In this document: positions 18,497-40,766 of the stretch, piece after piece | Numbering within the stretch: the stretch's first letter is position 1 | How the letters are laid out: each line of letters starts with the position of its first letter | From: Clostridia bacterium | Lineage (GTDB): Bacteria; Bacillota; Clostridia; Christensenellales; Borkfalkiaceae | NCBI GenBank assembly: GCA_029059705.1 | Contig: JAIDVM010000007.1 | Coordinates: forward strand, 1-64,000 | Reading direction: 5' to 3' | Length of the DNA: 64,000 bases | The notes under the pieces: model-generated | The model's input: only the letters and a program-made list of their open reading frames with translations | What the model was told of the DNA's origin: nothing | The model's database searches: none | Position numbers and translations under genes: made by a program

Positions 18497-19840
18497 TTAA
18501 TTTACGTTATATTTCGTGTAAACGCACGCGGTTGCGGAAACGTTAAGTTCAAGTCCGTCGGCGGCAGGGTCGGGATATACGGTTGACGACAGCGATTTGC
18601 CGTTTACGAAAATTTCAAGCGAAAACTCGTCGAAAACGACGGTTATTTCGGTTTTCGCGCTCCGTTTAAAAGGCATGCGCCTTATGCCCGCAAGGCTGTC
18701 GGCGTCCTTTTCAACGCCCGTAATCTGCTCGCCGGCGCGCGAACGGTCAAACACAAACTCATTGCCGACAAGATTAAACGACGCGTAATTTTCGCCTTTT
18801 TTACGCATTTTAAGCGAAAAATCTTTAATATCTTCTATTTCAAGCTTTATTGCGCCCGTTTTAACGTTATCCGAAAGAGTATTGACCACGGTTGTTTTTA
18901 AAACCTCACGCAAGTTTAACACGGGGGTTTGCAGCAATTCGCCGTCCTTTATCTCTACCCTTCTCGGCACGGTGAGCATGCCCGAAAAGCCGTATTTTTC
19001 GGAAGGGTTTTTTCTGTCCCACATATTGAGCCAGCCTATCATAACCGCTTCGTCCGCAAAAATTTGCGGCGCATAAAAATCGAAGCCGTAATCTATTATT
19101 TCGCTTTCGCCGAAGGTGCATTTTTTTGCGTTACAGTCAATATTTCCCAAACGGTAGAAAGTGCTGTGGATATTGAGGTGCTTGTTGCCGACTGCGGGCT
19201 GAAACTGTTCGCAATATGTAAGCAGCCCCAGCCGCTTGTTGTAATCGGGGCATTCAATCATCGTGCCGCTGCTGTCGGTATTCAACACGTCGCACTCGAA
19301 CTGCCATTTAAACAAATCCTTTGACGAAAACAACAGTATTCTGCCCCTGCCGTCAAGCTTGCGCGCGGCAACAAGGCAATAAAGCGTGTCGCCCTCGGCA
19401 AAGATTTTGGGGTCGCGGAAATCGCACGGGGAATAGCCGCACGGCAAATCCTTTTCACCTATCACGATGCCGTGTTTTTTAAAGTTTACGCCGTCTTCGG
19501 ACGAAGCAAGCGCCTGCAACTGCCTTATGTTTTCGCCGCCGCCGTTTTCTTTGTAGCTTGTGTACATAAGCCACAGCTTGCCCTTCCACACGATTGCCGT
19601 GCCCGAAAAGCAGCCGTCGTCCTGTTCGTCGGGACAAAGCGCAACGGGCAGATGCTCCCAATTAAACAAATCGCGGCTTTTTACGTGTCCCCAATGCATG
19701 GGGCCCCAATAAACGTTGCTTGAATAGTACTGAAAAAATACGTGATATTCGCCATTGAATTTTACCAAGCCGTTGGGGTCGTTAATCCAGCCCTTTTCGC
19801 CGGTAATATGGAATTTCGGTCTCAAATTTAAGTCGTCCAC
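18497..19840 (-). CDS. Cytoplasmic GH32 beta-fructosidase
   Basis: 447 residues, no signal peptide. The five-bladed propeller carries the three GH32 acidic residues: nucleophile Asp21 (WINDPNG), stabiliser Asp143 (FRDPK) and acid/base Glu196 (IECPD); a C-terminal beta-sandwich follows (about 310-447). It resembles sucrose-6-phosphate hydrolases, but in a locus with an ABC importer rather than a PTS the expected substrates are unphosphorylated sucrose or fructo-oligosaccharides. The start is GTG at 19838-19840 with GGAG 13 bases upstream, rather far, so the exact start is less certain. It is last in the locus, after an 82-base gap containing a hairpin, and may have partly separate expression. 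Confidence 0.92.
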   Translation of the reverse strand: MDDLNLRPKFHITGEKGWINDPNGLVKFNGEYHVFFQYYSSNVYWGPMHWGHVKSRDLFNWEHLPVALCPDEQDDGCFSGTAIVWKGKLWLMYTSYKENGGGENIRQLQALASSEDGVNFKKHGIVIGEKDLPCGYSPCDFRDPKIFAEGDTLYCLVAARKLDGRGRILLFSSKDLFKWQFECDVLNTDSSGTMIECPDYNKRLGLLTYCEQFQPAVGNKHLNIHSTFYRLGNIDCNAKKCTFGESEIIDYGFDFYAPQIFADEAVMIGWLNMWDRKNPSEKYGFSGMLTVPRRVEIKDGELLQTPVLNLREVLKTTVVNTLSDNVKTGAIKLEIEDIKDFSLKMRKKGENYASFNLVGNEFVFDRSRAGEQITGVEKDADSLAGIRRMPFKRSAKTEITVVFDEFSLEIFVNGKSLSSTVYPDPAADGLELNVSATACVYTKYNVN

Positions 19841-19922: not shown

Positions 19923-22037
19923 TTAAGAAATTTGGTTGGTTGCCGCAAGCCCTTCGGCAGGCTCCGCATCCAGGTCAGTAATTATTTCGTCTACAACAAC
20001 CAAACGCCAAGGTCTTTCTCCGGCGCCATTAGGCTCGTTGTCGAAAATTTCGATATAGCATTCAATTTCTTCCGCATTATCGAAATGATATTTGTACTGA
20101 ACAAGCTGACCTTCACCGGCTGCGGAAACGTTAGTATTCTGGAAACGTGCAATAACCGTTCCGTCGGTTTTTACTATCCTTATACCCAAAGTATCGTAAT
20201 CAGAGCCGCCGAGCCTGAACGAAATCCACGCATTTGCTTTTAACGTGAATTTTTCGCTTCTTATCGTGCCCATACGGTATTCGAGATTAGGGTCGTGGGG
20301 GGTATCTTCACTGTGCCCTTCGACAGCCGTAAACAATTTGCCGGTATTGCCATAATCGGCACCCCAATATCTGTTTGCCGAGCTTACCGCGCCGGGGATT
20401 GCCCCGTCGACGCACGTCCAGCCTTCGAGGTCGCTTTCGAAGCCGCCGTTGTAAACCTGATATTTACTTACTACGTCGCCCGTTCTGATATTTGCAGGGT
20501 GCTCTTTTTCCTCTGCAGTGTTTAAAACCTCGGGAACGGCTTTATAATAAGTTACAAAGCTATCTGCAAAGAACAAGCCGTAATCGCTTTCACCGACGTC
20601 GGTTATGCGGATATAAACGGTTTTGCCCTTGTGCGCAGAAAGGTCGGCTTTGTAGAAAATAAGCGAGCAACCGCTCTTTACGCCTTCGGTTCTTTCCTGC
20701 CATAAGCTGTTGCCATATCTTGCAAGGATTGCTCCCGTGTCCTTTTCAATTATGTCAAGATAAACCTTGTCAACGTTTTTTGCGCCGCCGAGCTGATAAG
20801 TTATATAACCCGAACCGCCGATTTTAAAAGGCGAGCTCGTTAAAGTGCCCATAGCGCCCTCGCTTGCGCCCTGCGCATAAGCAGAGAAAAATTTTCTGTC
20901 GTTACCAAACAGATAACCATCCTCGTTTTCTTTATCGTTCAGCCAATAGTGAGTATCTTCGGTAACGGAACCAAGCTTGGCGTTGCTTAAAGTCCAGCCG
21001 TTAAGCCCGTCGTCAAAGGTGCCGTTTGTTATGCGGTATGCCGTTGTATCGGTGATATGCAGGGTGTAATTGTAGGAAACGGAAGAATTATTCTGCCCGT
21101 ATTTTACGGTTACGGCAAAGGTTACGTCGGTTGCCGTTTCGGTGAAATTACCTTCGAAATTATATACCGCGCAATTGTCGCCGTCAAGCGTAACGGGCGC
21201 GCCGTTTAAAGTTACTTCGTAAGTAAGCGCAACGTCCGCGGGAGCTTCTACGTTTTCCGCAAAGTTTAAAGTTACGCCTTCCTTTTCGTCTATGGAAAGC
21301 TCGTAAATATCGATATTTCTTTCAACTGCCTCTTGCTTTAAAACGGGTTTAACTTCGGGATTGGGATTTTCTTCGGAACCGCCGGTATCGGTTACCTTTA
21401 CCGTAATATTAAACTCAACGGTTTTTGCCTGAGCCTCGGGTTTTTCGCTGTCGGTATAAGTTACCGTAACCGTAAGCGTTTTTTCGGTAACCGCGGCATA
21501 TGCGGCGGTTAATTTGTCATTTACTATCGTAACGCTTTCGTCCGCTTCCTTTAAAGCATACGAATAAACGTAGCTTTCATCTCCCGATTGAGGGGCGAGA
21601 GTAAGCGTTTTCGAAGTCTCGTCTTTAAGGTCGTATTCAAGCTTTAAATCCTCGAATACGGGCGCGGGTTTTTCAACGGGGGTTACGGTTTTTTCGTTTA
21701 CGGTAACCGCAAACTCAACAAAAACCTCGCCCGCCGCCGCGGTTATTTTAGCCGAGCCTTTTTTAACCGCGGTTACGGTTGCCGCAGAGCCGCTTAGCGA
21801 AACCGTTGCAACAGCTTCCGCCGAAGAGGAAACCGCGTAAACGTAGCCTTCGGGCAGGGAAATATAATCCGAAAGGTTTATATTGTGCCTGTCACCCTCG
21901 GTAAGCGTAATAGCCGTACCGTCTTTAAGCTTTTGGGGCTTGGGTTTGTCGCCGTTTTCGCCTCCGCCGCACGCCGCGGCGAAAACCATGGCAACGCACA
22001 GCATAGCCGATAAAAGCGCCGCATAAATTTTCTTCAT
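19923..22037 (-). CDS. Surface lipoprotein: Ig-like domains plus two tandem putative glycan-binding modules
   Basis: 704 residues from ATG 22037 (AGAGG upstream; a GTG three codons earlier lies within the site region). Signal peptide with lipobox AAAC, lipid Cys at residue 23. Residues about 35-340 look like two or three bacterial Ig-like domains. Two copies of a roughly 170-180-residue module follow, each opening NGxFxxxLxGWT (near 344 and 530), with a middle strand pattern GSGYITYxLGG or AWISFRLGG and a closing YKADL/IxIxDxGxxDxG...ADxF pattern. No catalytic motif was seen. Encoded inside the fructan locus next to a longer paralogue, it is probably a surface glycan-binding protein; binding is inferred. 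Confidence 0.78.
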   Translation of the reverse strand: MKKIYAALLSAMLCVAMVFAAACGGGENGDKPKPQKLKDGTAITLTEGDRHNINLSDYISLPEGYVYAVSSSAEAVATVSLSGSAATVTAVKKGSAKITAAAGEVFVEFAVTVNEKTVTPVEKPAPVFEDLKLEYDLKDETSKTLTLAPQSGDESYVYSYALKEADESVTIVNDKLTAAYAAVTEKTLTVTVTYTDSEKPEAQAKTVEFNITVKVTDTGGSEENPNPEVKPVLKQEAVERNIDIYELSIDEKEGVTLNFAENVEAPADVALTYEVTLNGAPVTLDGDNCAVYNFEGNFTETATDVTFAVTVKYGQNNSSVSYNYTLHITDTTAYRITNGTFDDGLNGWTLSNAKLGSVTEDTHYWLNDKENEDGYLFGNDRKFFSAYAQGASEGAMGTLTSSPFKIGGSGYITYQLGGAKNVDKVYLDIIEKDTGAILARYGNSLWQERTEGVKSGCSLIFYKADLSAHKGKTVYIRITDVGESDYGLFFADSFVTYYKAVPEVLNTAEEKEHPANIRTGDVVSKYQVYNGGFESDLEGWTCVDGAIPGAVSSANRYWGADYGNTGKLFTAVEGHSEDTPHDPNLEYRMGTIRSEKFTLKANAWISFRLGGSDYDTLGIRIVKTDGTVIARFQNTNVSAAGEGQLVQYKYHFDNAEEIECYIEIFDNEPNGAGERPWRLVVVDEIITDLDAEPAEGLAATNQIS

Positions 22038-22056
22038 TTTTTCCACCTCTTAAAAT

Positions 22057-24489
22057 TTATTTATTGTTAGTCGCCGTTACGGCGTTTTCCAACTCGGGTT
22101 TCGACTGATAATCCGTCGTTATCGCGTCCACCGCAACAAGTCTCCACGCGTTGCCGCTGTCGTTAGGCTCGTTGTCGAATATTTCGATATAGCACTCCGT
22201 TTCTTCGGTAACCTCCGTAAATTGATAAATATACTGCGCAAGCACGCCTTCGCCCGCGGGCGAAACCGCCGTGTGGTTGAATTCGCCCAAAACGGCGCCG
22301 TCGCTTGCCCTTACCACCCTTATGCCCGTGGTGGGGTTGATTGCTCCGCCGAGCTTAAAGGAAATCCAGCCGCCCGCCCTCAGCGTAAACTCGCGGCTTC
22401 TTATCGTTCCCATACGGTGCTCCAAAGCGGGCGAAGGATTAGGCTCGCCGTTATAGCCTTCGATTGCCGTAAACAGGAAGTTGCCCTCTTTGCCGTAGGA
22501 AGCGCCGCTGAAATATTTGTTATTCGAGCTTACCGCGCCGGGGACTTCGCCGTTTACGCAAGTCCAGCCCGTTAAATCGCCCGTTTCAAAGCCGCCGTTA
22601 AACACCTGATATTTATTTTCGTCTTCAAGCATGGGCAATTTGTCTATTGCAAGCTTTGCCTCGGAGGGAATTGCTTTTTCGTTTTCGTAATAAGTTATAA
22701 AGCTGTCGGCAATCAAAAGCCCCCAGTCGTCGTGTGCGTTGTCAACAAGCTGAAGCTTAATCTTTTTGCCCAAGAATTTGGTAAGGTCGGCCTTGTAAGC
22801 AGACATTGAACCGTCGTTAAAGTACATATTAAAGAAACGCGCAAGCTCGGTGCCGTTTTCGGCGTCAAGCACCGAAAGATAGCAAAGCGAGGAATCTTTG
22901 CCGCCGCCCAAACGGTAAGTTATCCAGCCCGTGCCGCCGAGAACGAATTCCGAACTCGTCAGCGTGCCGGTATTGCCTTCGAGCTTTTGTCCGTCGTGCT
23001 CGAAGCCCGTAAACAGATAATTACCTTTTTTGTTATAAGGTCTGCCAAGACAGAATTCTTCGTTTACAACCCTGCCTATGGGGTGTTCGGGGTCGCTCAG
23101 CGTCCAGCCGTTTAAGTCGCCCGTTTCAAAGTTGCCGTTTATAACCTGATGCTCGCTGTCGGGAATAACGTCGTAATTGTCGCTGATTACCGCGCGGTAA
23201 GCTTCCGTGTCATACCAGACGGGAGCTTCCTCCCAATAGGTTTTAACGCTGTCCAAGGTTATGCAGCCGAGTTCGTCGGTTGAAGAGTTTTTATCGACGA
23301 CTTCAATATACATTGTTCTGCCGAGATATTCGGAAAAGTCCGCATAGTATTGCACCATGTTCAAAAGGCGCATGCCGTTTGCAACGTGGGGGAACTGGAA
23401 ATTCCAATACTTAAAGTTAGAAAACTTTGCAATTTCGGTGTCCTTTTCCTCGCCCTTTAACATAAAGCGCAGATAGGTTAAGCCGTTATTTTGGCAGCCG
23501 CCGAGCTTCCAGCTTATATAGCCCGAACCGCCGAGCTTGAACTCGGAAGAGCGCATAACGCCCGTTGCCGCGGGCATATAGTGCCCGTAATGGAAATTGC
23601 CGTCGCGGGAATAGGTTATGTTTTCGTTCCACCAAACGCTTTCGGCATTAACTCCGTCGTGCGAAAAAGCTTCGCCTTCCACGATTTTCCAGCCCGCAAG
23701 CGAGCCCGTTTCAAACCCGCCGTTGGCGATATCATATTCCGAAGGCGCTTGCGCTTCAGTTTGATATATTTTAGACTTAACGAAATATTCGCCTTCCGTC
23801 TGCGCAAGAGCGTCACCGCCTATCCTTATATCGTCCACGGAGAGATAGCCGTAATAGAAGTGCTCGTCGTTATCCACAATGCGGATATACGCCTTTTCGC
23901 CCGCATAAGCGGATAAATCGAGCGTGTAATCGCAGAAGTTATCGGTGCAGTAAACGCCAGCTTTGTACTGAGCCAGATTTACGTAGCTTTCCGTGTGCTC
24001 CAAAAAGTAATCGTTGGTCTGCATGGCAATCATCTTGTTATCGGAAGCGCGGTAAACGCCGACGTAACAAAGCTTTTCTTTGCTCTTTGACGCAGCGCCC
24101 GCGTCCTTGCCGACTCTGGGCGAGCCGCCCGCGAGCTTCATCGATATTGTGCCGTCCTCGGGGATTACGAAATCGTTCGAACGGATTGCACCCGTTCTCG
24201 CGTTTGAATAGCTTCCGTCCGCCTTGCCGCAAAGATACCAGTTGCCCGTCTGTCCAACGGGAATTTGGGTATGGTTTGCATCGTAATCGTAGCTGAATTC
24301 GTTTTTGGATATAACGCAGTCGTCGGTGAAAGCGTTTCCGTATTCCACAGTCCAGCCGCTTAAATCGGCGCTTTCGAAGCCGCCGTTTATTACGCTTGCG
24401 GGAAGCTGTTCGCCGCCTGCGCACGCCACGCCGCCTATTGCGGCGCCCGCGCAGAGAATACTTAAAATCGCAATAAATTTCTTACGCAT
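22057..24489 (-). CDS. Surface lipoprotein: four tandem putative glycan-binding modules
   Basis: 810 residues; GGAGG 8 bases before the ATG; lipobox GVAC with lipid Cys at 23. The mature protein is four copies of the same module as its neighbour, opening at about residues 33, 255, 450 and 628 with NGGFE[ST]xxLxGW and sharing SSEFxLGGxGxISxKLGG and Y(K/A)ADxxxxLGxxxxxxVVD segments. The last module is much like the last of the 704-residue paralogue (shared CYIEIFDNEPN), pointing to duplication of a whole gene or gene end. The fold is probably a jelly roll of carbohydrate-binding type. 19 bases separate it from the next gene. No enzyme motif seen. Confidence 0.78.
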   Translation of the reverse strand: MRKKFIAILSILCAGAAIGGVACAGGEQLPASVINGGFESADLSGWTVEYGNAFTDDCVISKNEFSYDYDANHTQIPVGQTGNWYLCGKADGSYSNARTGAIRSNDFVIPEDGTISMKLAGGSPRVGKDAGAASKSKEKLCYVGVYRASDNKMIAMQTNDYFLEHTESYVNLAQYKAGVYCTDNFCDYTLDLSAYAGEKAYIRIVDNDEHFYYGYLSVDDIRIGGDALAQTEGEYFVKSKIYQTEAQAPSEYDIANGGFETGSLAGWKIVEGEAFSHDGVNAESVWWNENITYSRDGNFHYGHYMPAATGVMRSSEFKLGGSGYISWKLGGCQNNGLTYLRFMLKGEEKDTEIAKFSNFKYWNFQFPHVANGMRLLNMVQYYADFSEYLGRTMYIEVVDKNSSTDELGCITLDSVKTYWEEAPVWYDTEAYRAVISDNYDVIPDSEHQVINGNFETGDLNGWTLSDPEHPIGRVVNEEFCLGRPYNKKGNYLFTGFEHDGQKLEGNTGTLTSSEFVLGGTGWITYRLGGGKDSSLCYLSVLDAENGTELARFFNMYFNDGSMSAYKADLTKFLGKKIKLQLVDNAHDDWGLLIADSFITYYENEKAIPSEAKLAIDKLPMLEDENKYQVFNGGFETGDLTGWTCVNGEVPGAVSSNNKYFSGASYGKEGNFLFTAIEGYNGEPNPSPALEHRMGTIRSREFTLRAGGWISFKLGGAINPTTGIRVVRASDGAVLGEFNHTAVSPAGEGVLAQYIYQFTEVTEETECYIEIFDNEPNDSGNAWRLVAVDAITTDYQSKPELENAVTATNNK

Positions 24490-24500: not shown

Positions 24501-27092
24501 TTATAAGTCGCCGAGATTGCCCGTATCTCCGTAATACGGGGGCGTAACCGTTTGCGAATACGCGCTTCCCATGCGGTAAACCGTGAATTTGTTAAACTTA
24601 ATCCCCGCGTTGGTATCGAACACTTTTATATAATCCGAATCGCCATATTTGGGATATATTCGGGTGGTAAAGCTCATTACGCCGTTTACGTAAACCTCTA
24701 ACATGGACCTGTCTAAAAGGATAATAACGTCGTAGCTCCTTTCCGTATTAATCCACGTGCTGCTGTCATCCTTTTTGACGTAGCTTAAAAGCGAGGATTG
24801 CGTTCTTGCAATGTAAACGCCTTTTTGTGAAAACGTTATATCCGTGTGCTCTGTTTGCAAATTGACCGTATTGGGATTATACCTTACGTTTATTCCGCCC
24901 GAATATACTTCGGACGAGGGTTCAAGCGTGAACGAAGCCCTTATTTCAAGCATATCCCCGCGTATATCCTTTATTTCCGCGTTGATTTCGCTTGCCGTTT
25001 TACCGCTGCCGGAATAATCGTAAAGCGTTTCCGTGCGTATGCTTTCAAGCTCTTTTATGGGTTCGCGGATAACCTCCTTGCCGTCGTCGGAAAGGTACAG
25101 CTCCAAGGGGATTGCAAAGTTATGCGCCCAGCCCGCCTGTTTGTTCTGAGCCGTGCCCGCGTCCTTGCCCTGCGCAATCGAGTAAATAACGGTTCTGCCC
25201 TGCGTATATTCGGTTTTGCCCGCCGCGATATCCTCTTCGGTGAGATAGCAAAAACCGTTTTGCCCCGTGTAAATCCCGTATCCTCTGTCGAAAAGCCTCG
25301 GCGCCTGAGTTTTGCGCACTTCAAGCTTGTGCAATTTTCGGGGGTCGGTATTGCCTGCGGCAACGTAATCGTTGTATTCTTTAACCGCGTCGGGATTTTC
25401 ATCGGGAATAAACTTACACGTTGCTTTATCAAACGTGCCTATCCAGTAGTAGCAATCCACGACATATCCGTCCACGGTGTACTGCGGGCAGTCGAAAAGT
25501 ATATATTTGGTTTGCGTGCCGTCCTTTGTGGAAATGGGGAGCATAACCACGCATTCCCAATGCGCGCCCTGCTCGGGAACACATTCGTAATCACAGTCAA
25601 ACAGATAACCCTTATACTCCCACTCGCGCATGTCGGTTGAAGTATAAACGTTTGCCGAACCGCCCCTTCCGGGGATAGAGGTGGAAACCATCATATAATA
25701 TATGCCGTCGTCGTACCATACGAACGGGTCGCGGAACTGGTCTCTTTCACCCTGAACGCCGCCTGCGGGCTGGGTTATAACCACTTTATCCTCGACTACC
25801 CAATCTACAAGATAGGGGTCGTCGGGGTTAGCCGCATGCGCAAACGCTACGTTCTGCCCGCTCCCGTCCACGCCTACTTTATTGGTGCCCGCGGTTATCG
25901 CAAGCCAAGGAGTGCCGTCGGGTCCTATGCAAGCGCCACCCGTCCAAACGCCTTCGGGGCAAATTCCCTCCGTGGGAACGACCGCGTCCTTTACGTATTC
26001 CCAATGAATCATGTCGTCGCTGACTATGTGCGCCCAGCGTATCTGCGACCAATAGGGGCCCGAAGGATTGTGCTGATAGAACACATGATATTTGCCCTTG
26101 TAATAGAACGGCGAATGGGGTTCGTTCATCCATACTGCGGGGGGAATTGCGTGATATTGCGGGCGGTAGCAGTCGCCCTCGTACACTGAACTGTCGAGCG
26201 CGACGTCCTTCCAGTCGAGCGCGGGGTGTCCCTCGCCGTCAACGTCTTTATAAACGTTTTCAACCTGCGCGGGGGAAAGGCTTTCGCCGTAAATTTTTAC
26301 TTCGTCCAACAGCCCCGCGGGCATTTGGCGGTCTACGCTGAACTCCACCATGGGGTTGGTGTATCTGCCCACGTATAAAGGCTCGGCTGAGGAAATTATT
26401 TTGGTGTTTTTAAGCTCGGGGATAATGGCTTCGTAAGCGGTTTCGCCGTTGTAAAACAGCCCTATATACCCCTCCGTTCCGTCAAAGCTGACGGACAAAT
26501 GCGACCATTCGTAAAGCGGCAGCGAGTTTATCGGGTCGTAATAGCCGACGACGAATTCGTTGTCCGCTTCGTCGCGCAGAGCAAACTGCGCGCCCCAAAG
26601 CCCCAGCCTGCCGTAGCCGAATGTGAAGCCTTCGCACATTTCCATGTCGCCCTTGTTTAAAACGGCGGTAAGGCGGGTGTGCCCCTTTGCGTCCGATTCA
26701 TCGCTGTAATTGACCACGTTTTCGAAAACGCGGGGCGCAACCCATGCCGAAAAGGTGACCGCCGAAGAATTTATTTTTAAATCGTTGTTGGTTACGTAGG
26801 TTGAAAAGCCGTCCATGTAAAGGCTGTTGCCCTTTACTCCCTTTTTTCTCAAAGGGTCGGATTTTTCCTTGAACACTTTTTCCGCGTCGGTAACGTCGTC
26901 GCTGAAAACGTATCTTATTTTGTAATCCTTTCCGCTTACGCTTTCCTTTGCCGCAGTGCCGCCGTTTTCGTCAAACGAGTAATGCGCCAAAAGCTCGCCC
27001 TCGTTTGAACCGCCGCAGGCGGAAATAAACGGAACGCACGCAGCCGATAAGCTTAATGCCGTTATTAAAGCAATCGTCTTTTTCAGTTTCAT
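24501..27092 (-). CDS. Lipoprotein GH32 with N-terminal LamG domain and altered nucleophile motif
   Basis: 863 residues from ATG 27092, preceded by GAGG. Lipobox ISAC, lipid Cys 26. A LamG/concanavalin-like domain occupies about 35-280 (HYSFDENGG...LDEVKIYGESLS). The GH32 propeller starts near 305; in place of WMNDPNG it has WMNEPHS with Glu324 where the nucleophilic Asp belongs, while the stabiliser RDP (QFRDPFVW) and acid/base EC (HWECVVM) are present. A GH32 C-terminal beta-sandwich ends the protein. It acts at the outer membrane face on fructan or a related chain. The motif change may mark a subfamily with a different product or specificity. Eight bases after the permease stop. Confidence 0.87.
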   Translation of the reverse strand: MKLKKTIALITALSLSAACVPFISACGGSNEGELLAHYSFDENGGTAAKESVSGKDYKIRYVFSDDVTDAEKVFKEKSDPLRKKGVKGNSLYMDGFSTYVTNNDLKINSSAVTFSAWVAPRVFENVVNYSDESDAKGHTRLTAVLNKGDMEMCEGFTFGYGRLGLWGAQFALRDEADNEFVVGYYDPINSLPLYEWSHLSVSFDGTEGYIGLFYNGETAYEAIIPELKNTKIISSAEPLYVGRYTNPMVEFSVDRQMPAGLLDEVKIYGESLSPAQVENVYKDVDGEGHPALDWKDVALDSSVYEGDCYRPQYHAIPPAVWMNEPHSPFYYKGKYHVFYQHNPSGPYWSQIRWAHIVSDDMIHWEYVKDAVVPTEGICPEGVWTGGACIGPDGTPWLAITAGTNKVGVDGSGQNVAFAHAANPDDPYLVDWVVEDKVVITQPAGGVQGERDQFRDPFVWYDDGIYYMMVSTSIPGRGGSANVYTSTDMREWEYKGYLFDCDYECVPEQGAHWECVVMLPISTKDGTQTKYILFDCPQYTVDGYVVDCYYWIGTFDKATCKFIPDENPDAVKEYNDYVAAGNTDPRKLHKLEVRKTQAPRLFDRGYGIYTGQNGFCYLTEEDIAAGKTEYTQGRTVIYSIAQGKDAGTAQNKQAGWAHNFAIPLELYLSDDGKEVIREPIKELESIRTETLYDYSGSGKTASEINAEIKDIRGDMLEIRASFTLEPSSEVYSGGINVRYNPNTVNLQTEHTDITFSQKGVYIARTQSSLLSYVKKDDSSTWINTERSYDVIILLDRSMLEVYVNGVMSFTTRIYPKYGDSDYIKVFDTNAGIKFNKFTVYRMGSAYSQTVTPPYYGDTGNLGDL

Positions 27093-27100
27093 TTTTTTCC

Positions 27101-28027
27101 TCACATTTTAAGCCCTGCCGAGCCGAAGCCCTGCACGATATACTTCTGCGCCGCAACATAAATAACGAATATGGGAATACTTGTAACTACGAGGGAAGCC
27201 ATTACCTCGCCCGTGGTTATACCCCTAATACTCTGGATTGTGTTGAGCGCCGACTGTATGGGATAGAGCGGCCACTCGCCTTCGCCCGGATAGGGCAAAA
27301 TCATCGTAGGCCAAAGGTAATCGTTCCACACGCCTATAAAGCAGAACACGGCGACGGTTGCGATTATCGGTTTGGAAAGCGGAAGTATGATTTTAAAGAA
27401 AATTCCCATCGTGCTTGCGCCGTCTATCCTTGCCGCCTCTTCGTATTCCTTGGGAATACCCTCGAAAAACTGAATGAAGAGGAATATGTTGAATATGCTT
27501 ATCGCCGCGGGAAGAACAACGCCCGCAACCGACATTACGCCCTTTAACCCAAGCATGGTTTTAACTATTGAGTACAAGGGAATTATAGAAGTTTCCACCG
27601 GCACGACTATTAAGAAAATAATCATGAACGACAAAAGCTTTTTGCCGGGAAAGCGCAATTTTGCCATTACATAGCCCGCAAGCCCGTTTATGAGCACGTT
27701 TAAAACTATTACAATGGCCGCATACAGAAAGCTGTTTAACGCATAGCGCCAAATACCGTAATCCGTGAACACCTTGCCGTAGTTATTGAACATAGTGCCG
27801 AGGTTTGCGAAATCGGGCAAAAACATTGCAAGCGAGCCCGCGTCGGCAACGTAAGCCGATTCGCTCTTTGTGGAGGTTGCAAGCATGTAAACGAGCGGAA
27901 AAAGGAACAGCAGCGAAAGGATAATTCCGCAAACGTAATAAACCACGTCCTTCGCAATTTTGTCGCCCTTAACGCGCTTTCTGCGCAGAAGCGTATATTC
28001 TACGGGAATAACATTTTGCTTTTTCAT
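27101..28027 (-). CDS. ABC sugar transporter permease (MalG/MsmG type)
   Basis: 308 residues, six helices. The EAA loop that docks the ATPase is EYEEAARIDGASTMGIFFKI, about residues 200-219. The C-terminus GFGSAGLKM is typical of the MalG family. It pairs with the permease one base upstream and the binding protein, forming a CUT1 importer for oligosaccharides, with ATP hydrolysis supplied by the MsmK-like protein at the head of the locus. Start codon overlaps the previous stop region, so translation is coupled. Confidence 0.94.
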   Translation of the reverse strand: MKKQNVIPVEYTLLRRKRVKGDKIAKDVVYYVCGIILSLLFLFPLVYMLATSTKSESAYVADAGSLAMFLPDFANLGTMFNNYGKVFTDYGIWRYALNSFLYAAIVIVLNVLINGLAGYVMAKLRFPGKKLLSFMIIFLIVVPVETSIIPLYSIVKTMLGLKGVMSVAGVVLPAAISIFNIFLFIQFFEGIPKEYEEAARIDGASTMGIFFKIILPLSKPIIATVAVFCFIGVWNDYLWPTMILPYPGEGEWPLYPIQSALNTIQSIRGITTGEVMASLVVTSIPIFVIYVAAQKYIVQGFGSAGLKM

Positions 28028-28028: not shown

Positions 28029-29000
28029 TCATTTCTCCCTTAAAATCCTGCGCTGAATTAACGTTATAGTGCCTATAACCAAAGTCATAAGCAACGCTAT
28101 TGCCGAGGAATAACCTACCCAACGGAATTCGTAGCCTTGCTGGTACATGTAATAGCTTAAGGTTACCACGTGTTCCTGATAACCGACCATAATCATCGGC
28201 TGAACCATAACGCGGCACGCGCCGATGAAAACGGTTATTATTACGAATACAAGCGTTGAGCGGAGTCCGGGCAAGGTTACGTGAACAAACTTTGACCACG
28301 CGCCCGCGCCGTCGAGCGAGGCAGCTTCGTATAGCTCGTTGCGGATATTCGTCAACCCCGAAAGGAAAATGAGCATCTGATAGCCGCAGCCCTGCCATGC
28401 GCTTAAAATTATTATGCAAAGCATTGCCGTGTTGGGGTCGCGCAGCCAGTCGTGCGGGGGAATACCGAACATTCCCAAAAACGAGTTTAAAAGTCCCGTT
28501 GAAGCGGGCGAAAGGATTTCAAGCCACAAAAACGACGTTACGCTTAAAGAAATTACTACGGGCGCGAAAAAGCACACCTTAAAAATCTTTACGCCGCGTT
28601 TTTTGCGGTTTACGAAAACCGCAAGCCCCAAAGCAAGCCCTATTTGCAGCGGAACAACCCCCACCACGAATATAAGCGTGTTGATTATCGCGTGATAGAG
28701 CATGCCCTTATCGCCGATTTCCTTAAACGCCGTGGCAAAGTTATCGAAGCCGACAAAGTTTATGTCGTTGGGCGTTAAGATAAAGAAATCCGTAAAAGCG
28801 TAGCCCAACGAATAAAGTATGGGCAACAGGATAAATAAAAACGCAAGCAGTATTGCGGGCAACAGCATTAAATACGCCGTAACCGTTGAACCCACGCGGT
28901 ACTTTTCCCGCTTCTTCTTTGCGCGCACTACGTCCCATACGGCGAACGCGACGAACGCCGCGGCGAATACGGCAAGAATTATAAGAGTAGTAGTTACCAT
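28029..29000 (-). CDS. ABC sugar transporter permease (MalF/MsmF type)
   Basis: 323 residues with an N-terminal helix (2-22), a basic stretch (RAKKKREK), then six helices. EAA loop: EAASLDGAGAWSKFVHVTLP, about 221-240. It forms the heteromeric channel with the downstream permease. AAGGGG lies before the ATG; the gap to the binding-protein gene is 22 bases. Confidence 0.94.
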   Translation of the reverse strand: MVTTTLIILAVFAAAFVAFAVWDVVRAKKKREKYRVGSTVTAYLMLLPAILLAFLFILLPILYSLGYAFTDFFILTPNDINFVGFDNFATAFKEIGDKGMLYHAIINTLIFVVGVVPLQIGLALGLAVFVNRKKRGVKIFKVCFFAPVVISLSVTSFLWLEILSPASTGLLNSFLGMFGIPPHDWLRDPNTAMLCIIILSAWQGCGYQMLIFLSGLTNIRNELYEAASLDGAGAWSKFVHVTLPGLRSTLVFVIITVFIGACRVMVQPMIMVGYQEHVVTLSYYMYQQGYEFRWVGYSSAIALLMTLVIGTITLIQRRILREK

Positions 29001-29022: not shown

Positions 29023-30369
29023 TTAATGTTTGCTGTGTTTATTCATTTCGGCCTGTAATTCGTTTGTTCTTGAGTTAAGAACATCGGTAAGGTTGCATGT
29101 TGCAGCCGTCTGCTGCGTTGCAAACGAATAAATTACGCTGCAAAAGTTTGACGAGAAGTTGGGATAAGCAACCGTTGCGGGGCGAGCCTTGCCCGTTTTG
29201 GAAAGCTGCTGCATCAAAACGTCTTCGGGAGAACCTGCCGCATAGTTCGTTTCAACGTCAGTGCGTGCGGGAATCATGCCCGTTGCGTCGGTTATTACCT
29301 TGGAGCTTTCGGGCGAGGTCATCCACAAAAGAAGCTCTTTTGCCGCGGATTTGTCTTTAACGCCGTTGTTGGTAATGCCGAACGACCAGCTGCCCGTTGC
29401 GCTTGCTTTCTGTTCCTTCATAGGATAGGGAAGAAGTCCCCAAGTGTTTCTGTCGTGATTGCCGAATACCGCGGGATACTTGTTGTCCAAATCGGGTATA
29501 GTCCAGCCCGAGGAAAGATACATTGCAACCTTTCCGTCAAAAAAGTCGGTTGCGCCGACGGGGCCCGCCGCATTCGAGGTGTAACCCTTTTCTACAAGCC
29601 CCTTTAAAAATTCGAAGCCTGATTTTGTTTTATCGGAATTCATATATCCCGTTGCGGTAAGTCCGTCTGCCGAAGTAAACTCGCCGCCCGCCGCATAGAT
29701 GAAAGGATATAAAAGATAGGGCGCCATCTCGTCCCTTGCGTTGTAAAGCTGCAAATCGAGCGGTGTTTTGCCCGCGTCTTTAAGCTTTTTGCAAACCGCT
29801 TCGAACTGTTCAAACGTCCAGGGGTTGTCAACGGTGTACGAACTTACGTCAACGCCCGCCGCGTTTAATATGGACTTGTTGTAATAGATGCCCGCGCTCG
29901 ATTCCTGAATGGGCAAACCGTAAAGCTTTCCGTCGTATGTATTGAGCGAAGTAGAATAAAACTTTGACTGCGTTTCGGCGGGATCTATTTCCGAAATATC
30001 ATAAAGAATATGTTTATCGGCGTAAGCCGCGCAGTTGGGCGCGTCGAAGGCGATTATATCGTCAAGAGTGCCCTCCGCGAATTTGTTGGTTATTACGCTT
30101 TCGTAACCGCCAACGCCCGTGGTGCGCGCTTTAAAGGTTATCGAAGCCTTAATTTTCTGCTCTTTATAAGCCGCGTTGAAGGCGTCTACTCTCTTTTTAT
30201 AAGCCTTGCCCTCCGCCGTGGATTCGTCAACGTGAACCATTATTTTTACGATTTTGTTGCCTTCGGCGTCTGTGCCTCCAACGCCTTCGCCGCCGCCGCA
30301 AGCGGCAAAACCGCACATCATTACGGTGCCGAGAGCGACAGCCGCAACCGCTTTAAAAAATTTATTCAT
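29023..30369 (-). CDS. Extracellular sugar-binding lipoprotein of the ABC importer
   Basis: 448 residues, solute-binding protein family 1 (CUT1). Lipobox FAAC, lipid Cys 24, followed by a Gly-rich linker. Internal features include AFDAPNCAAYADK, a WTFEQFEAVCKKL segment and NTWGLLPYPM, normal for oligosaccharide binders. It captures fructo-oligosaccharides released by the surface GH32 enzymes; substrate inferred from context. AAGGAG before the ATG. A 127-base gap containing two hairpins separates it from the lacI-type gene, which may allow higher expression of the binding protein than of the regulator. Confidence 0.94.
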   Translation of the reverse strand: MNKFFKAVAAVALGTVMMCGFAACGGGEGVGGTDAEGNKIVKIMVHVDESTAEGKAYKKRVDAFNAAYKEQKIKASITFKARTTGVGGYESVITNKFAEGTLDDIIAFDAPNCAAYADKHILYDISEIDPAETQSKFYSTSLNTYDGKLYGLPIQESSAGIYYNKSILNAAGVDVSSYTVDNPWTFEQFEAVCKKLKDAGKTPLDLQLYNARDEMAPYLLYPFIYAAGGEFTSADGLTATGYMNSDKTKSGFEFLKGLVEKGYTSNAAGPVGATDFFDGKVAMYLSSGWTIPDLDNKYPAVFGNHDRNTWGLLPYPMKEQKASATGSWSFGITNNGVKDKSAAKELLLWMTSPESSKVITDATGMIPARTDVETNYAAGSPEDVLMQQLSKTGKARPATVAYPNFSSNFCSVIYSFATQQTAATCNLTDVLNSRTNELQAEMNKHSKH

Positions 30370-30496: not shown

Positions 30497-31468
30497 TTAC
30501 TTTGTGGTAGCGCCTTTTATAAACGAGGTTTTAAGCTCCGTTCTTAAAGGAACCTGCTCGCCGCGGATTTTTTTAATGAGCACCCGCACCACCTCGCGCG
30601 CCATTTCCTCGATGGGCTGCTCCACGCAAGTTAATAATCTGTTGTTGTTCCATTGTCGGAACGCGCCGTCGTAAGAAACTATCTGCAAGTCCTCGGGCAC
30701 GTTTATCCCCTTTTGCATAGCCGTTTCGTAAAACGCCTGAGCCATGGAATAGCCCGAAGCAAAAACGCCGTCCACGTTGGGGAAGCTGTTTAAAAAGCCT
30801 TCCACCACGCTGCTTTCGTCGCCGTGCAGCATGGCTTCGTTCACCAAACGGATTTCCATGCCGTGCTTTTGCATTGCGTCGCGATAAGCCCTTTCCCTTT
30901 CCATTACCTCGGAAGAAACCAACGGCTTCGAACCGATATAGCCCACCTTTTTGCAACCCTTTTCAATCAGGTATTCAACCGCTTTAAAGGTTGCGTTATA
31001 GTTATCTGAAGTTACGTAAGGATAATCCTCGCCGAAAGAGCGGTCTATGGAAACAATAGGGCAGTTTTTAAGCTCTTCGGCGTCGTGCGCGTAGTGCGTA
31101 ACGAACACCGCCCCATCCACCTCGCGCCGCTGAATTCTGTCGATTATGTCCTTTTCCTTTTCAACGCGCTGCTGCGATGAAACCAAAATTACGGAATAAC
31201 CGAATTTGTCCGCCTCAGCCTCGACGTAGTTTGCAAGCTTTGCAAAAAACGGGTGATATACAACGGGCACCAAAAGCGCAATGTTGCGCGTTTCGTTTTT
31301 CCTCAGCCGCGAAGCCATGCGGTTGGGCTGAAATTCAAGCGCTTCCATAGCCTTTTGAACTCTTTCGCGCGTTTCGCTGTTTACCGCTTTTTCGCCGTTT
31401 AAAACCCTTGAAACGGTGCCAATGCCTACGCCGGCGTATTTGGCAACGTCCTTTATCGTAGTAGCCAT
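30497..31468 (-). CDS. LacI family transcriptional regulator of the fructan locus
   Basis: 323 residues from ATG 31468, preceded by GGAG; an in-frame ATG 4 codons earlier overlaps the stop of the upstream gene and lacks spacing. The N-terminal HTH reads TIKDVAKYAGVGIGTVSRVLN over about residues 3-23, followed by the hinge QPNRMASRLR and a periplasmic-binding-protein-like sensor domain. Probably senses a fructan-derived sugar and binds the palindrome at 39139-39160. Located inside the operon it would control, 11 bases after the 1,198-residue GH32 gene. Confidence 0.92.
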   Translation of the reverse strand: MATTIKDVAKYAGVGIGTVSRVLNGEKAVNSETRERVQKAMEALEFQPNRMASRLRKNETRNIALLVPVVYHPFFAKLANYVEAEADKFGYSVILVSSQQRVEKEKDIIDRIQRREVDGAVFVTHYAHDAEELKNCPIVSIDRSFGEDYPYVTSDNYNATFKAVEYLIEKGCKKVGYIGSKPLVSSEVMERERAYRDAMQKHGMEIRLVNEAMLHGDESSVVEGFLNSFPNVDGVFASGYSMAQAFYETAMQKGINVPEDLQIVSYDGAFRQWNNNRLLTCVEQPIEEMAREVVRVLIKKIRGEQVPLRTELKTSFIKGATTK

Positions 31469-31479
31469 TTTTTTCTCCA

Positions 31480-34400
31480 TTATTGTTCTGCGGAAACTTT
31501 GCCCTTGCGCTTTAATATCACTCCCGCAACAGCCGTAGCCGCGCACAAAACAAGCACGCCGCCCACAACCGAAAGCGAAACTATTAACGCAAGGTTGCCG
31601 TTGCCGCCGCCGTTCGGCTGCGCCGCGGGCACGGCCGTAACGGTTATTTTAAAGCTCTTTCCCGCGAACTCCAAAACGTGTTCGCCGACTTTAAGGTTGC
31701 GCGCATAAACGGTTAAAATTCCGTTTTCCGCTTTATATTCACCGTTTGCGAGCTCGGCTCCGTTTAAGGTAACCGCACCCGGGGATGCGGCGCCCACGTT
31801 TATTACCGCGTTACAGCCCTCGTCTATATACAAATCAGCCGCCGTAAACACAGGAATTGCCGTTACGTTTACCGAAATTTCGTAAACGATTGTCGCGCCC
31901 TTTACCGTCAAGCGGTAAACGCCCGTTTGGGGAATGGTTTTAAAATAATCTTCGCCAAGCTCTACGCGTCTGCCGTTTTCTTTGTAAAAGCCGCCGTTTA
32001 TTTTCACGTTGCCGAGCGTATTGTTATAAATTGCGTTTATATGCTGTTCGGTTTCGCCCGAAATCACGAGATTGCCCGAGCCCGCGTATTCGTAATCGTT
32101 TTTTACAAGGACAACCGAGGAAAACGTTGTGGTTGCCGCGCACGAATTAAGCCCGAGCAGGCCTTCGGTCGGTTCGCCTTCGTCAAGCGTGGCGTTAATC
32201 ACCTCGTTGCCGTTTAAATAAACCTTTACGTTGTTTCCGTAAGCCGCAACCTTTAATAGCATTTTATCGGTATTCTGCCCGCCCACGTTTACGTTTCCGT
32301 ATTCGCGGCTTTGCGACCAAAGCTTAACGATTTTTCCGTTGTTGTCGTAATTTGCCACAAGGTATCTGGAAAGATAACCGTCCACGCCGCGTTCGGCCCT
32401 GAACACAAGCGCGGCAGCCGCGCCTTCGAGCTTAAACGTTGCGGCGTAAGTGAAGTCCGCCGCGGTTTTTCCGGAAAGAATAAAGCCGTCGCCCGAAGAT
32501 TGAACGCCCTGCAAGCCGCCGTCGGTTAAAAACCAATCGCCCGAAATTTTGCCTTCCTGCGTAAATTCCACGTCGGAATCAACGCTGCCCGAAACCACGG
32601 TTACGTTAATTTTTTTGGTTACGCTGCCGCAGGTTACGGCAATAACCGCCTTGCCCGCGGAAAGCGATTTAATCTTTGCACCGCCCTCGGTTTTTTCAAC
32701 GCCAGCCACGTTTTCGCCGCTTTCCACAGCCCATTCGATTTCGCCGCCCGCGGTGGAATAAGCCATTACTTCCTTTTCGCAGGTGAGCGCTCTGTCAAGG
32801 GTAATTTCCTCCGCGCCGAGATAGAGCACCGTTTCGCCGTCCTGCGCCTCTTTGCGCCACGCCGAAGATATTTCGTTTACTGTTACGGTTGCGGTTACGT
32901 CCCCTTCCGCGAAAAACTCAGCCTTCGTTGCGTAGGGTGAAGAGAAAGTCAAAACGTAGAAGGGAACGGTGAAGTTATCGCAATAAACCTCCACGCCGCC
33001 GTTGTCGGAAAGAATGTAAAAGTTGAGTTCGGTTCCGTCGCCGCTCTGCTTTGAATAGCGGCGGCGGTAATTGCCAAGATTAAGCCCCGCGTCGCCCGCA
33101 TGCGTGCGGTCTACATAATAGCCGTCCGTCGCGTTCCAGCCTATTTCGGTATACTCGCTTCCGTTCATGTTTATGCGGAAATACACCGCGGCTTTTTCGG
33201 GGTTTTGCACGCTTGCCTCAAGCTCGAAGCAATGCGTGTTCAAGTCCTTTAAAATATTTTCGCTTTCGGACGTAATTTGCTCGTTTACCCCCGAATATAT
33301 CTGTGTTTTAAGCTCTTTAAACTTCTGCGAGGTTTTAACGACGGGCGTTTGCGTGAGTATATAACCGCCGTTTCCGTCCGACACAAGCCCGTATTCAACG
33401 GGGATTGTCATGCCGCCGCCGTTCCAAACCTTTCTTGCCGCCGCAAGCGCGCCGCTGTCTATCGAAGCTTCGGCGCCGGGCACGCCGCTGAACCAGCTGA
33501 GCGCAATTTTTTTGCCGTAGTACTCGCTGCTTTCGTCGTCGATGTAAAAGGATTGCGTCGCGTAGGAATCGGGGCCGAAATCCATAGTTTGGAAAGGAAC
33601 AGCCTTTAAAATTTCTTTTACTTCGTCATCAGCTTTATCTACTATATTACCGTACTTGGCGGCAACGTTGCCCTTAAAATCGGTAAAGATAATATTTCCG
33701 CTCGCCTCGTCGTAGCCTATTTCGCCTACGAGGTACTGTCTGCCCGTAAAAGTTATTACGGTATGCGTTGTATTATCGTCCGCTTTAAGAGTTACCACGT
33801 CGGGGCACTCGGGGCGGTAAGCGTTAAAGCCGCCCGCCTTTTGCCAGTTAAACAAATCGGTAGACTTCAAAAACCATACGTCGTGGGTTTCCATGCCCGT
33901 TACTATCATGCCCCACAGCGTCGTTTTTCCGTTCGTATCCTTTTTAACGGGAAAAACCTTGGGGTCGCGGCAGGATTTCCTTTTGGCTTCGCCCAAAAGC
34001 GAATAGGGAATCGCCTTGCGCTTTGTCCAAGTTATGCCGCCGTCGTCGCTGGACATAATCACCTGGTCCTGATAGACGGCGTCGCGCGTGTAAAAAGCGA
34101 TTAACCCCGTGCCGTTGCCGTTTTTAAACCAATTGAGCCCGTCGATAACGTCGCTCATACCGGGGCGGTAAACCATTGCCGAGCCCGACCACATGTAGCC
34201 GTCGCCCAAACCAAATCCGTCGCTTTCTCTGTCGGGGAAAAGGCATATGGGCAAAAGCTCCCAATGCGCCAAATCGCGGCTTCTCGCATGTCCCCAATAC
34301 ATGTCGCCCCAAAGATTGTTGTAGGGGTGATGCTGATAAAAGAGGTGATACCAGCCGTCGTAATACACAAGTCCGTTGGGGTCGTTGTTCCAATGCGCAT

Positions 34401-35076
34401 ACTGCGAAAAATGGTATTGCTGGCGGTATAATTCCGTGTAATAGGAATAATCGCTGACCCCTGTATATGTTTCGTTGAAGCTCACTTTTGCGCTGAAACA
34501 GTTATATCCCGTTTTGCCGCCCTCGTAGCTTAAGCCTTCTTTGAGGTCGTTGAGGTCAATGGTAAGCTCTTCGCCCTTTTCGTCAAACGCGAAACGGCGG
34601 ATATTGTCCGCGTAAAACTCCGCGTAAGCCTTGTCGCCTTCGGGAGTGATTACCACTTTAAGCTGAACCTTATCAAGCTCGGCAACCTTGTGGTTGACCT
34701 TCAATTGCTCGCCTCCGGTAATTTTGTCGTTGCCGATAAACCACGCTTCGCGCAAAACAAAATCGCCGCTTTCGGGAAAGTATATTAATTTTACGCGGTT
34801 GGCGGCTCTGTCCACGTTAAAAACCCATTTGTGGTTTTCGTCCGCGCCGAACACAAGCCCAGCCGCGTTGCCGTTTTCGAAGTTCGCCGTTGCGGTAAAC
34901 ACGAATTTTTCCTCGGCGGAAAACGAATTTTCGGTTAATACGAACTCGTTGCCGCTGCCTTCAAGCGTTACCGTATCCGCGCTTGCGGATTTTGCGGGCA
35001 ACAGAAAAGCGAGCGCGCCGCAAACAAGCGCCGCCGCTGCCAATAGTGAAATTATCCCTTTTTTCAAAGCTTTCAT
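31480..35076 (-). CDS. Multimodular, membrane-anchored extracellular GH32 (levanase/inulinase type)
   Basis: 1,198 residues from ATG 35076 (AAGGGG upstream; a TTG two codons earlier is inside the spacer). Signal peptide to about ASA|DT near residue 34. N-terminal CBM66-like beta-sandwich (38-205); GH32 propeller (about 212-560) with nucleophile Asp232 (WNNDPNG), RDP (SCRDPKVF) and EC (RPECPDV) all intact; GH32 C-domain (about 580-740); a Big2-like Ig domain (about 750-830); a second CBM66-like domain (about 835-990); further Ig-like domains; then a helix (about 1163-1185) and basic tail LKRKGKVSAEQ. No LPxTG. It cuts polymeric fructan at the surface; exo versus endo mode is not readable. Confidence 0.92.
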   Translation of the reverse strand: MKALKKGIISLLAAAALVCGALAFLLPAKSASADTVTLEGSGNEFVLTENSFSAEEKFVFTATANFENGNAAGLVFGADENHKWVFNVDRAANRVKLIYFPESGDFVLREAWFIGNDKITGGEQLKVNHKVAELDKVQLKVVITPEGDKAYAEFYADNIRRFAFDEKGEELTIDLNDLKEGLSYEGGKTGYNCFSAKVSFNETYTGVSDYSYYTELYRQQYHFSQYAHWNNDPNGLVYYDGWYHLFYQHHPYNNLWGDMYWGHARSRDLAHWELLPICLFPDRESDGFGLGDGYMWSGSAMVYRPGMSDVIDGLNWFKNGNGTGLIAFYTRDAVYQDQVIMSSDDGGITWTKRKAIPYSLLGEAKRKSCRDPKVFPVKKDTNGKTTLWGMIVTGMETHDVWFLKSTDLFNWQKAGGFNAYRPECPDVVTLKADDNTTHTVITFTGRQYLVGEIGYDEASGNIIFTDFKGNVAAKYGNIVDKADDEVKEILKAVPFQTMDFGPDSYATQSFYIDDESSEYYGKKIALSWFSGVPGAEASIDSGALAAARKVWNGGGMTIPVEYGLVSDGNGGYILTQTPVVKTSQKFKELKTQIYSGVNEQITSESENILKDLNTHCFELEASVQNPEKAAVYFRINMNGSEYTEIGWNATDGYYVDRTHAGDAGLNLGNYRRRYSKQSGDGTELNFYILSDNGGVEVYCDNFTVPFYVLTFSSPYATKAEFFAEGDVTATVTVNEISSAWRKEAQDGETVLYLGAEEITLDRALTCEKEVMAYSTAGGEIEWAVESGENVAGVEKTEGGAKIKSLSAGKAVIAVTCGSVTKKINVTVVSGSVDSDVEFTQEGKISGDWFLTDGGLQGVQSSGDGFILSGKTAADFTYAATFKLEGAAAALVFRAERGVDGYLSRYLVANYDNNGKIVKLWSQSREYGNVNVGGQNTDKMLLKVAAYGNNVKVYLNGNEVINATLDEGEPTEGLLGLNSCAATTTFSSVVLVKNDYEYAGSGNLVISGETEQHINAIYNNTLGNVKINGGFYKENGRRVELGEDYFKTIPQTGVYRLTVKGATIVYEISVNVTAIPVFTAADLYIDEGCNAVINVGAASPGAVTLNGAELANGEYKAENGILTVYARNLKVGEHVLEFAGKSFKITVTAVPAAQPNGGGNGNLALIVSLSVVGGVLVLCAATAVAGVILKRKGKVSAEQ

Positions 35077-35086
35077 ATTCAACCCC

Positions 35087-36010
35087 TTATTTTTGTGGAA
35101 TGGTTTCCAAAAGTGCGTTTTGTACTTGTGCCAAATCGGGCAGGCTGTCTATTGCGCCCTTCCCCAAAGTGTTGAGCGCGCCGCAGACGTTGCCGAAGCG
35201 GAACGCCGAATTTAAAACTTCTTTAGTCCATTTTTCGCGGGGCAGTCCGCAAAGCTGCGACAATATACCCGCATAAAACGCGTCGCCCGCGCCCGTCGTA
35301 TCGGCGGGTTTGACCTTTATGGAGGGAACCGTGTTGCTTTCGCCCTTAAACCTCCACTCGCTGCCCGCGCCGCCAAGGCTTATGCAAACGAGTTTTTCGT
35401 AAAGCTCGCCGTTTATATAGCTTTCGCTAAAAATTTCAACCTCGTCCTCCGAAAATTTAACCACGTCCGCAAGCGCGAGAATTTTTTTATAAGCTTTAAC
35501 CGCGCTTTCTTTATCCCTGAATATATCCGTGCGGAAGTTTACGTCAAAGCTGACAATCTTCCCCGCGGCGTGCGCGCGGCTGGCAAGCTCTTCGGCGTAA
35601 GATATGCCCTCGCTTTCAGAAAGCATTAAAGAGCCTATGTGCACGATATCCGCCGCGTTTAAAAGCTGTTCGGGGATTTGCGGCATAACGTAATCGGCGG
35701 TGCGGTTGCGGTAAAAACAGAACGAGCGTTCGCCGTTTTTGTCCAAATCCACAAAGGCGAGCGTGGTGTTTCTGTCTTTAAGGCGGTTTAACAAAACCTT
35801 TTCAAGCTTTTGCGAATTTGCAAAAGCATATAAAAAATCGCCTATGCAATCTTCGCCGACGCTGCCCGCAAACGCGGTTTTTGCGCCGAATTTAGCCGCC
35901 GCGCAAGCCACGTTAAAGGGCGCGCCGCCCGCCTTTCTTTCGTATGAAAACGCGCCTTCCCTTTCAACGCCAATCATGTCGGCAAGAATTTCACCCGCGC
36001 ATAAAATCAT
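35087..36010 (-). CDS. Fructokinase (PfkB family)
   Basis: 307 residues from ATG 36010, chosen for GGAGG 6 bases upstream; this site lies within the previous gene, which it overlaps by 20 bases. PfkB features: N-terminal GGAPFNVACAAAKFG, and the C-terminal signature DTTGAGDAFYAGIL, whose last Asp is the catalytic base. It phosphorylates fructose released inside the cell to fructose-6-phosphate, feeding glycolysis and, through GlmS, amino-sugar synthesis. Fructose specificity is inferred from the locus. Confidence 0.92.
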   Translation of the reverse strand: MILCAGEILADMIGVEREGAFSYERKAGGAPFNVACAAAKFGAKTAFAGSVGEDCIGDFLYAFANSQKLEKVLLNRLKDRNTTLAFVDLDKNGERSFCFYRNRTADYVMPQIPEQLLNAADIVHIGSLMLSESEGISYAEELASRAHAAGKIVSFDVNFRTDIFRDKESAVKAYKKILALADVVKFSEDEVEIFSESYINGELYEKLVCISLGGAGSEWRFKGESNTVPSIKVKPADTTGAGDAFYAGILSQLCGLPREKWTKEVLNSAFRFGNVCGALNTLGKGAIDSLPDLAQVQNALLETIPQK

Positions 36011-37298
36011 TTTGCACCTCCGCAAAAACCTCGTCCTCTTTCTCTTCCTTCGGAGGATTTTTCTTTAAATTAATCTTTTCCATAATAATAAGCACGCACG
36101 TTCTTACAAGCGTTACAACAAAGAACAGCACCAACGCAAGTATAAACAGATTGTTTCTTGAAACAAAGTAACCGCAAACGAACGTGCACAGCGCGGTTAT
36201 AAGCGAGGCAAAAAGCAAAAACGAAGCCACTATTTTAAAGCACCCGCCGTACTTTTTGCTTATATTCGACTTTATTAAACTCAAAATGCAGTATGCGAGC
36301 AACGCAATTACTACGGGCATAAGCACGATAAACGGCACAAGCCTTATAAAATTCATTGCGTACACGTAAACGCTTACGTTAGAGGTGTTGTAAAACGCGC
36401 TCTTTATAAATTCGTCCACGGCGCTTTGCGTTCCGCCGAGCCTGCCGTTTGCCATGCCGCCGTAAAAGCCGTAAAACTGAACGGTGTGCCCCGCGTCAGT
36501 ATTAAAGCAGCCCGTGCAGGTGTCGCTGAACAGATAAAAATAAGCTTTGCCCGCCTTTTGCGAATAGTTGTGATAATAATAATTTCGTAAAAGCGGCGCC
36601 GAGCCCGTTCTTTCGTATGCCGTCATCGACGGATAATAAGCCTTAACATAAAGGGTATAGGCGCGCTTTGCGTATTCCTCTTTCGAAAGCTCGCCTTTTT
36701 TGTTTTTCAACGCCGTATATTCCGCCGCAACCGCGTTTTCGGATTTAAGCCCCGAAAGAAAGATTTCGTGCTTTTCGGTAAGTTCGGGCGTAAGCACAAG
36801 CTCGCGCGGGGTGTATTCCACCTTAAAATCGAAGTTGCGCTTTGCCGCGTCGGAAAGATTTAAGTATTCTTCGTAAGTTATTCTGTCGCCCGTGCCGTCG
36901 TTTGCAAGACAATAGGGAATAAAATCGTCGAACGCGTCGGCGGGGCGGGTATCTATTACAAGGTTATAGCCGTTGATTTTATACTTTGCCGCCGCCTCTT
37001 CGTCGGATAAAGTGTCGATAACTCTCCCTTCCGCCGTGCCCGCAAGCTCGTTTTCAAGCAAAACGTCAACCGCGTTTTCGCCGTCCGCAAACGCGTTATA
37101 TAAAAATTCCTTAAATTCGCCCGCCGCGCCGTAGTGCGCGGGGAAAGGCAAAAGGTCGGCGGCGATTACTCCGCAAATGAGAATAACGAACGCGACTACA
37201 AAGCATAAAATCGCGGTAAAATAACCGCGCTTTACGCCCTGTTTAGCTATTTTGTCGGAAAAGAACGAAAGCCCGACAAACTTAAACCAATCTTTCAT
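35991..37298 (-). CDS. Membrane protein with large extracellular domain, unknown function
   Basis: 435 residues. One helix near 27-50, an outside domain of about 265 residues, then three helices (about 318-343, 352-380, 385-408) and a charged tail KKNPPKEEKEDEVF. The outside domain contains a CxxC (DTCTGCFN) close to a Gly/aromatic-rich segment (QFYGFYGGMANG). The topology recalls DUF1189-like proteins, but I cannot assign it. It lies between the transporter ATPase (23 bases) and fructokinase (overlap), so it is translated with the importer. A role as an accessory factor to the importer or in surface sensing is speculation. Confidence 0.75.
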   Translation of the reverse strand: MKDWFKFVGLSFFSDKIAKQGVKRGYFTAILCFVVAFVILICGVIAADLLPFPAHYGAAGEFKEFLYNAFADGENAVDVLLENELAGTAEGRVIDTLSDEEAAAKYKINGYNLVIDTRPADAFDDFIPYCLANDGTGDRITYEEYLNLSDAAKRNFDFKVEYTPRELVLTPELTEKHEIFLSGLKSENAVAAEYTALKNKKGELSKEEYAKRAYTLYVKAYYPSMTAYERTGSAPLLRNYYYHNYSQKAGKAYFYLFSDTCTGCFNTDAGHTVQFYGFYGGMANGRLGGTQSAVDEFIKSAFYNTSNVSVYVYAMNFIRLVPFIVLMPVVIALLAYCILSLIKSNISKKYGGCFKIVASFLLFASLITALCTFVCGYFVSRNNLFILALVLFFVVTLVRTCVLIIMEKINLKKNPPKEEKEDEVFAEVQNDFMRG

Positions 37299-40725: not shown

Positions 40726-40766
40726 ATTTCAATAATACAAGAAGTTATGCGCAGTTTATATGCGTT

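Follow-up and report, generated by a model that had tools for sequence, protein, structure and literature searches.

Organization of the locus

Within the window, by which we mean the whole 64-kb stretch of Clostridia DNA analysed here, the minus strand carries a run of genes for sugar import and GH32 proteins. A MalK/UgpC-type ABC ATPase of 575 amino acids (37322..39049), likely the importer's ATPase, is followed by a 435-aa membrane protein with no Pfam or NCBIfam match (35991..37298), a PfkB-family sugar kinase that is probably a fructokinase (35087..36025), and a GH32 protein (31480..35082) with a C-terminal membrane anchor and a CBM66-like domain (residues 845-991; E 1.6e-9 against 4azz). 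Next in order are a LacI-type regulator (30497..31546), an SBP_bac_8 sugar-binding lipoprotein (29023..30369) and two permeases (28029..29000 and 27101..28027) of the ABC sugar importer, and a LamG-GH32 lipoprotein (24501..27104) that belongs to the subfamily of CBM38-fused enzymes and carries Glu where GH32 enzymes normally have the Asp nucleophile (WMNEPH). Two further lipoproteins, protein A (22057..24489; 810 aa) and protein B (19923..22046; 707 aa), are the subject of this work, and the run ends with a GH32 protein identified by domain search, which has no signal peptide and carries the canonical WINDPNG motif (18497..19840). A and B, which the preliminary description had placed between the importer and GH32 genes, are thus flanked on both sides by GH32 genes, the importer itself not being directly adjacent.

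Between its Q-loop and its ABC signature, the ABC ATPase carries a charged insert of ~175 residues. Comparable insertions occur in a few genomes of the same genus, where many homologous open frames are 570-670 aa long. Elsewhere on the minus strand lie two neighbouring proteins made largely of Sel1 repeats (39229-42200) and a 4933-aa open reading frame with MBG and YDG repeat domains (49132-63933), probably a giant surface protein.

Each of the two proteins begins with a signal peptide and a lipobox, ending ..AIGGVAC at Cys23 in A (24421..24489) and ..MVFAAAC at Cys26 in B (21969..22046), and the genome encodes an Lgt that matches its profile above the cut-off, in line with the predicted lipidation of both. 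The lipobox is also kept in most homologues of the multi-module lipoprotein. The presence of Lgt, with no Omp85 detected in the genome, fits a lipoprotein-producing monoderm.

Six copies of one module

Protein A consists of four CBM38-like modules: A1 (23800..24405; residues 29-230), which carries an insert, A2 (23218..23742; residues 250-424), A3 (22672..23157; residues 445-606) and A4 (22093..22617; residues 625-799). In protein B, an Ig-like N-terminal part precedes two such modules, B1 (20529..21044; residues 335-506) and B2 (19956..20468; residues 527-697). Pairwise identities among the six are 26-38%, apart from A4 and B2, which are 62% identical. A profile made from just the four modules of A recovered both modules of B (whole-sequence E 4e-69) and gave no matches in reversed or shuffled controls. 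Both open reading frames lie where they had been placed, and the original reading of two lipoproteins built from six copies of one module is borne out. The same holds for the proposed lack of a catalytic motif, since no catalytic family was found in either protein in Pfam or NCBIfam.

Other details needed adjustment. The modules span ~162-202 aa, the insert-bearing A1 included, where ~170-180 residues had been given; the SSEFxLGGxG core described for all of them is clear in A2, A3 and B1 and degraded in A1, A4 and B2; and the sole basis for Ig-like domains in B is one weak Big_2 match under the Pfam cut-off.

An AlphaFold2 model of A3 computed with 108 module sequences (pLDDT 97.2) is mainly beta, and its best matches among solved structures are a porphyran-binding CBM (8xmz, VIA Z 13.4), CBM61, CBM4-2 and CBM16, all of them beta-sandwiches. 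The predicted fold is a CBM-type beta-sandwich; as this fold is also found outside CBMs, it supports glycan binding without proving it. The model of the whole of protein A has low overall confidence (pLDDT 77, pTM 0.42), and we therefore claim no arrangement of the modules; its long matches to reelin and Cry proteins were taken as repeated beta-sandwich similarity only.

Relationship of the module to CBM38

Sequence searches identified the A/B module with the N-terminal repeats of GH32 enzymes from Paenibacillus and related bacteria, at best with ~39-45% identity, A2 being the nearest of the six to the Paenibacillus N-terminal modules (45%). Residues 252-734 of A share 39% identity (E 2.5e-87, 503 aligned residues) with the N-terminal repeats (residues 57-510) of L050, a GH32 protein from Paenibacillus pabuli, and B matches the N-terminal repeats of Paenibacillus CFTase-type enzymes at E ~1e-45 to 1e-48. 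These GH32 relatives have two to four modules, LamG, GH32 and a further module, and the commonest Paenibacillus order is module, module, weaker module, LamG, GH32 and C-terminal module. In the P. pabuli protein, modules at 52-227, 237-412 and 419-560 are followed by LamG, GH32 (818-1156) and a last module at 1327-1491.

These coordinates are nearly equal to the layout that dbCAN2 assigned to one Defluviitalea raffinosedens protein, CBM38(44-189)+CBM38(221-367)+CBM38(409-527)+GH32(808-1121)+CBM38(1313-1448) (PMC7355431), and it is on this ground that we assign the module to CBM38. The passage on this family in PMC10076258, citing Lee et al. 2004, defines CBM38 (formerly X39) as residues 32-389 of the GH32 cycloinulooligosaccharide fructanotransferase (CFTase) of P. 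macerans (AAG47946.1), and describes this founding member as a module that binds inulin and levan. The modules of A and B are best called CBM38-like, their membership being drawn from architecture and relatives.

That no family name was at hand for the module is explained by the absence of CBM38 from Pfam and NCBIfam. Neither A nor B matches a family above cut-off in these collections, and a search of single modules, proposed for Pfam in the preliminary description, gave the same picture, with scattered weak matches and none that reached its cut-off. Two candidates were set aside: CBM_4_9 (PF02018), which reaches 23.8 bits on protein A against a gathering cut-off of 25.9 and does not match A3, and NTTRR-F1 (NF033675), at 51.1 bits against an NCBIfam cut-off of 70. 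The CBM66 structure 4azz is absent among the module-profile matches at E<=1, the structure lists being insufficient to exclude CBM66. Annotation with Pfam alone misses CBM38, so that MAGs probably encode more fructan-binding proteins than are annotated as such.

A scan of named genomes returned 44 module loci; Paenibacillus accounts for 29 of them and Clostridia MAGs, many from gut or rumen, for the other 15. In a protein search of a plasmid collection the module appeared in only two GH32 proteins (Pseudalkalibacillus and Catenovulum), and a scan of viral contigs found no relatives.

Divergence among modules

The six A/B modules and the Paenibacillus N-terminal repeats were placed in a tree of 147 modules, whose deep nodes have moderate branch support. 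A1, A2 and A3 each cluster with the module at the same position in other Clostridia, which points to an old and stable array, and the Paenibacillus N-terminal modules nest inside the clade to which A2 and A3 belong. A2 alone keeps most of the positions conserved in Paenibacillus, while A1, A4 and B2 have diverged there; hence not every module need bind, and ligand preference may differ from module to module.

A conserved gene block and its fused counterpart

Eleven other loci from gut Clostridia have the block permease-permease-LamG-GH32-A, with a LamG-GH32 protein of the same subfamily (L016, L077, L078, L079, L080, L081, L083, L084, L085, L087 and L088); L082, which is truncated, is a twelfth example. 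In most of the eleven, a second module-bearing protein lies next to the A homologue, and a signal-less GH32 follows downstream of the module proteins where the contig reaches that far. Of 396 genomes sampled from the order, 16 have strong module matches (E below 1e-20), as do 3 of 391 sampled from the class; the fructan locus with these modules is patchy in its distribution.

The LamG-GH32 protein of the window is 34-35% identical over ~840 residues to the corresponding LamG-GH32 region of the fused enzymes of Paenibacillus type. Both groups have the motif WMNE(P/A/S)H at the site where GH32 proteins otherwise read WxNDPNG, as do the remaining two of the window. In fungal endo-inulinases, too, Glu occupies this position, which would suit endo action by the LamG-GH32 protein. 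The genomic context, with modules and enzyme fused in Paenibacillus and encoded by adjacent genes here, points strongly to a common substrate, and the A/B locus is, as judged from these comparisons, a split version of the fused CBM38-LamG-GH32 enzyme. A yak-rumen MAG encodes a protein with a lipobox and one CBM38-like module N-terminal to GH32 (L090:2289-4352, plus strand), which may be intermediate between the split and the fused arrangement.

Proposed role and alternatives

The fructan capture suggested at the outset finds good support in the homology to the CBM38 of GH32 fructan enzymes and in the conserved operon of GH32 genes and an ABC importer. From the computed repeats, homology, predicted fold, lipobox plus Lgt and gene order we infer binding, its ligand, surface location, endo action and cooperation between the components, and put at about 0.83 the probability that A and B are surface CBM38 lipoproteins tethering inulin-type fructan beside an endo-acting GH32 and the importer. 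Lipid on Cys23 of A and Cys26 of B would anchor the two proteins to the outer face of the monoderm cell, where several of their modules together would hold inulin-type, and perhaps also levan-type, fructan chains. The LamG-GH32 lipoprotein, a relative of CFTase-type enzymes, would cut the tethered chain into oligosaccharides; these would be taken up by the ABC importer, and the intracellular GH32 and the PfkB kinase would finish the pathway. Far more speculatively, the locus may act as a split CFTase at the surface of gut Clostridia that converts inulin into cyclic or inulo-oligosaccharides and passes them selfishly to the dedicated ABC importer.

One alternative keeps the modules CBM38-like and moves their main ligand to, for example, levan, graminan or a bacterial exopolysaccharide. 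The retention of most Paenibacillus-conserved positions by A2 only, together with the CBM66-like domain on a GH32 protein of the same operon, would suit such a shift, but every enzyme in the operon is a GH32 and the adjoining LamG-GH32 falls in the CFTase-like subfamily, and we regard it as possible though unlikely. It is hardly probable that A and B, instead of binding glycan, have a structural role as docking platforms for the GH32 enzyme or for the binding protein of the importer: tight genetic linkage to the LamG-GH32 gene, and the occurrence of the beta-sandwich fold in domains that bind proteins, MAM and reelin among them, would accord with docking, but the Paenibacillus modules lie covalently within an enzyme, a usual setting for CBMs, and inulin and levan are ligands of the founding CBM38. 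The undescribed carbohydrate-binding family proposed in the preliminary description, to which the lack of any Pfam or NCBIfam match above cut-off might have pointed, is very improbable, as the repeats of CFTase-type GH32 enzymes are made of this very module and dbCAN2 calls it CBM38 in a protein of like architecture.

With the capture of inulin-type fructan by A and B as the preferred reading, the locus offers a named module family, a testable protein and a conserved operon. Inulin is a widespread prebiotic, and its surface capture by uncultured monoderm gut bacteria is little described. The module family is already known; what is new is that the modules stand alone on lipoproteins and that the Gram-positive fructan operon around them is conserved, an incomplete literature search, mostly at title and abstract level, having found no description of CBM38-only lipoproteins.

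Comparison with known systems

The proposed analogy with SusE/SusF of Bacteroidetes holds at the level of function, as these are likewise non-catalytic, multi-domain, lipid-anchored and encoded beside an importer and a hydrolase. Membership of those families was dropped, since A and B have no Pfam match to SusE or SusF at E<=1 and the outer-membrane marker Omp85 was not detectable. Among Gram-positive systems, the gpPULs Eub-3 and Eub-4 (PMC5320581) resemble the present locus in combining GH32, an ABC importer and a LacI regulator; unlike it, the Roseburia and E. rectale loci in the excerpts of that paper have no CBM-only lipoproteins named.

CBM66 of B. subtilis SacC is also a fructan-binding module of GH32 enzymes, but the CBM66-like domain here sits in a GH32 protein separate from A and B. 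There are parallels with CBM38 itself. In the P. macerans CFTase it likewise forms homologous repeats of ~175 aa with a beta-sandwich fold, tied to a LamG-GH32 fructan enzyme, whereas A and B are separate lipoproteins without a catalytic domain. The CFTase-like Paenibacillus GH32 proteins (L050-L076) share with this locus both the module type and the LamG-GH32 subfamily whose nucleophile motif reads WMNE, but hold modules and enzyme in one polypeptide; here they are adjacent lipoprotein genes, and A and B thus present a binding array naturally separate from the enzyme to which it is fused elsewhere.
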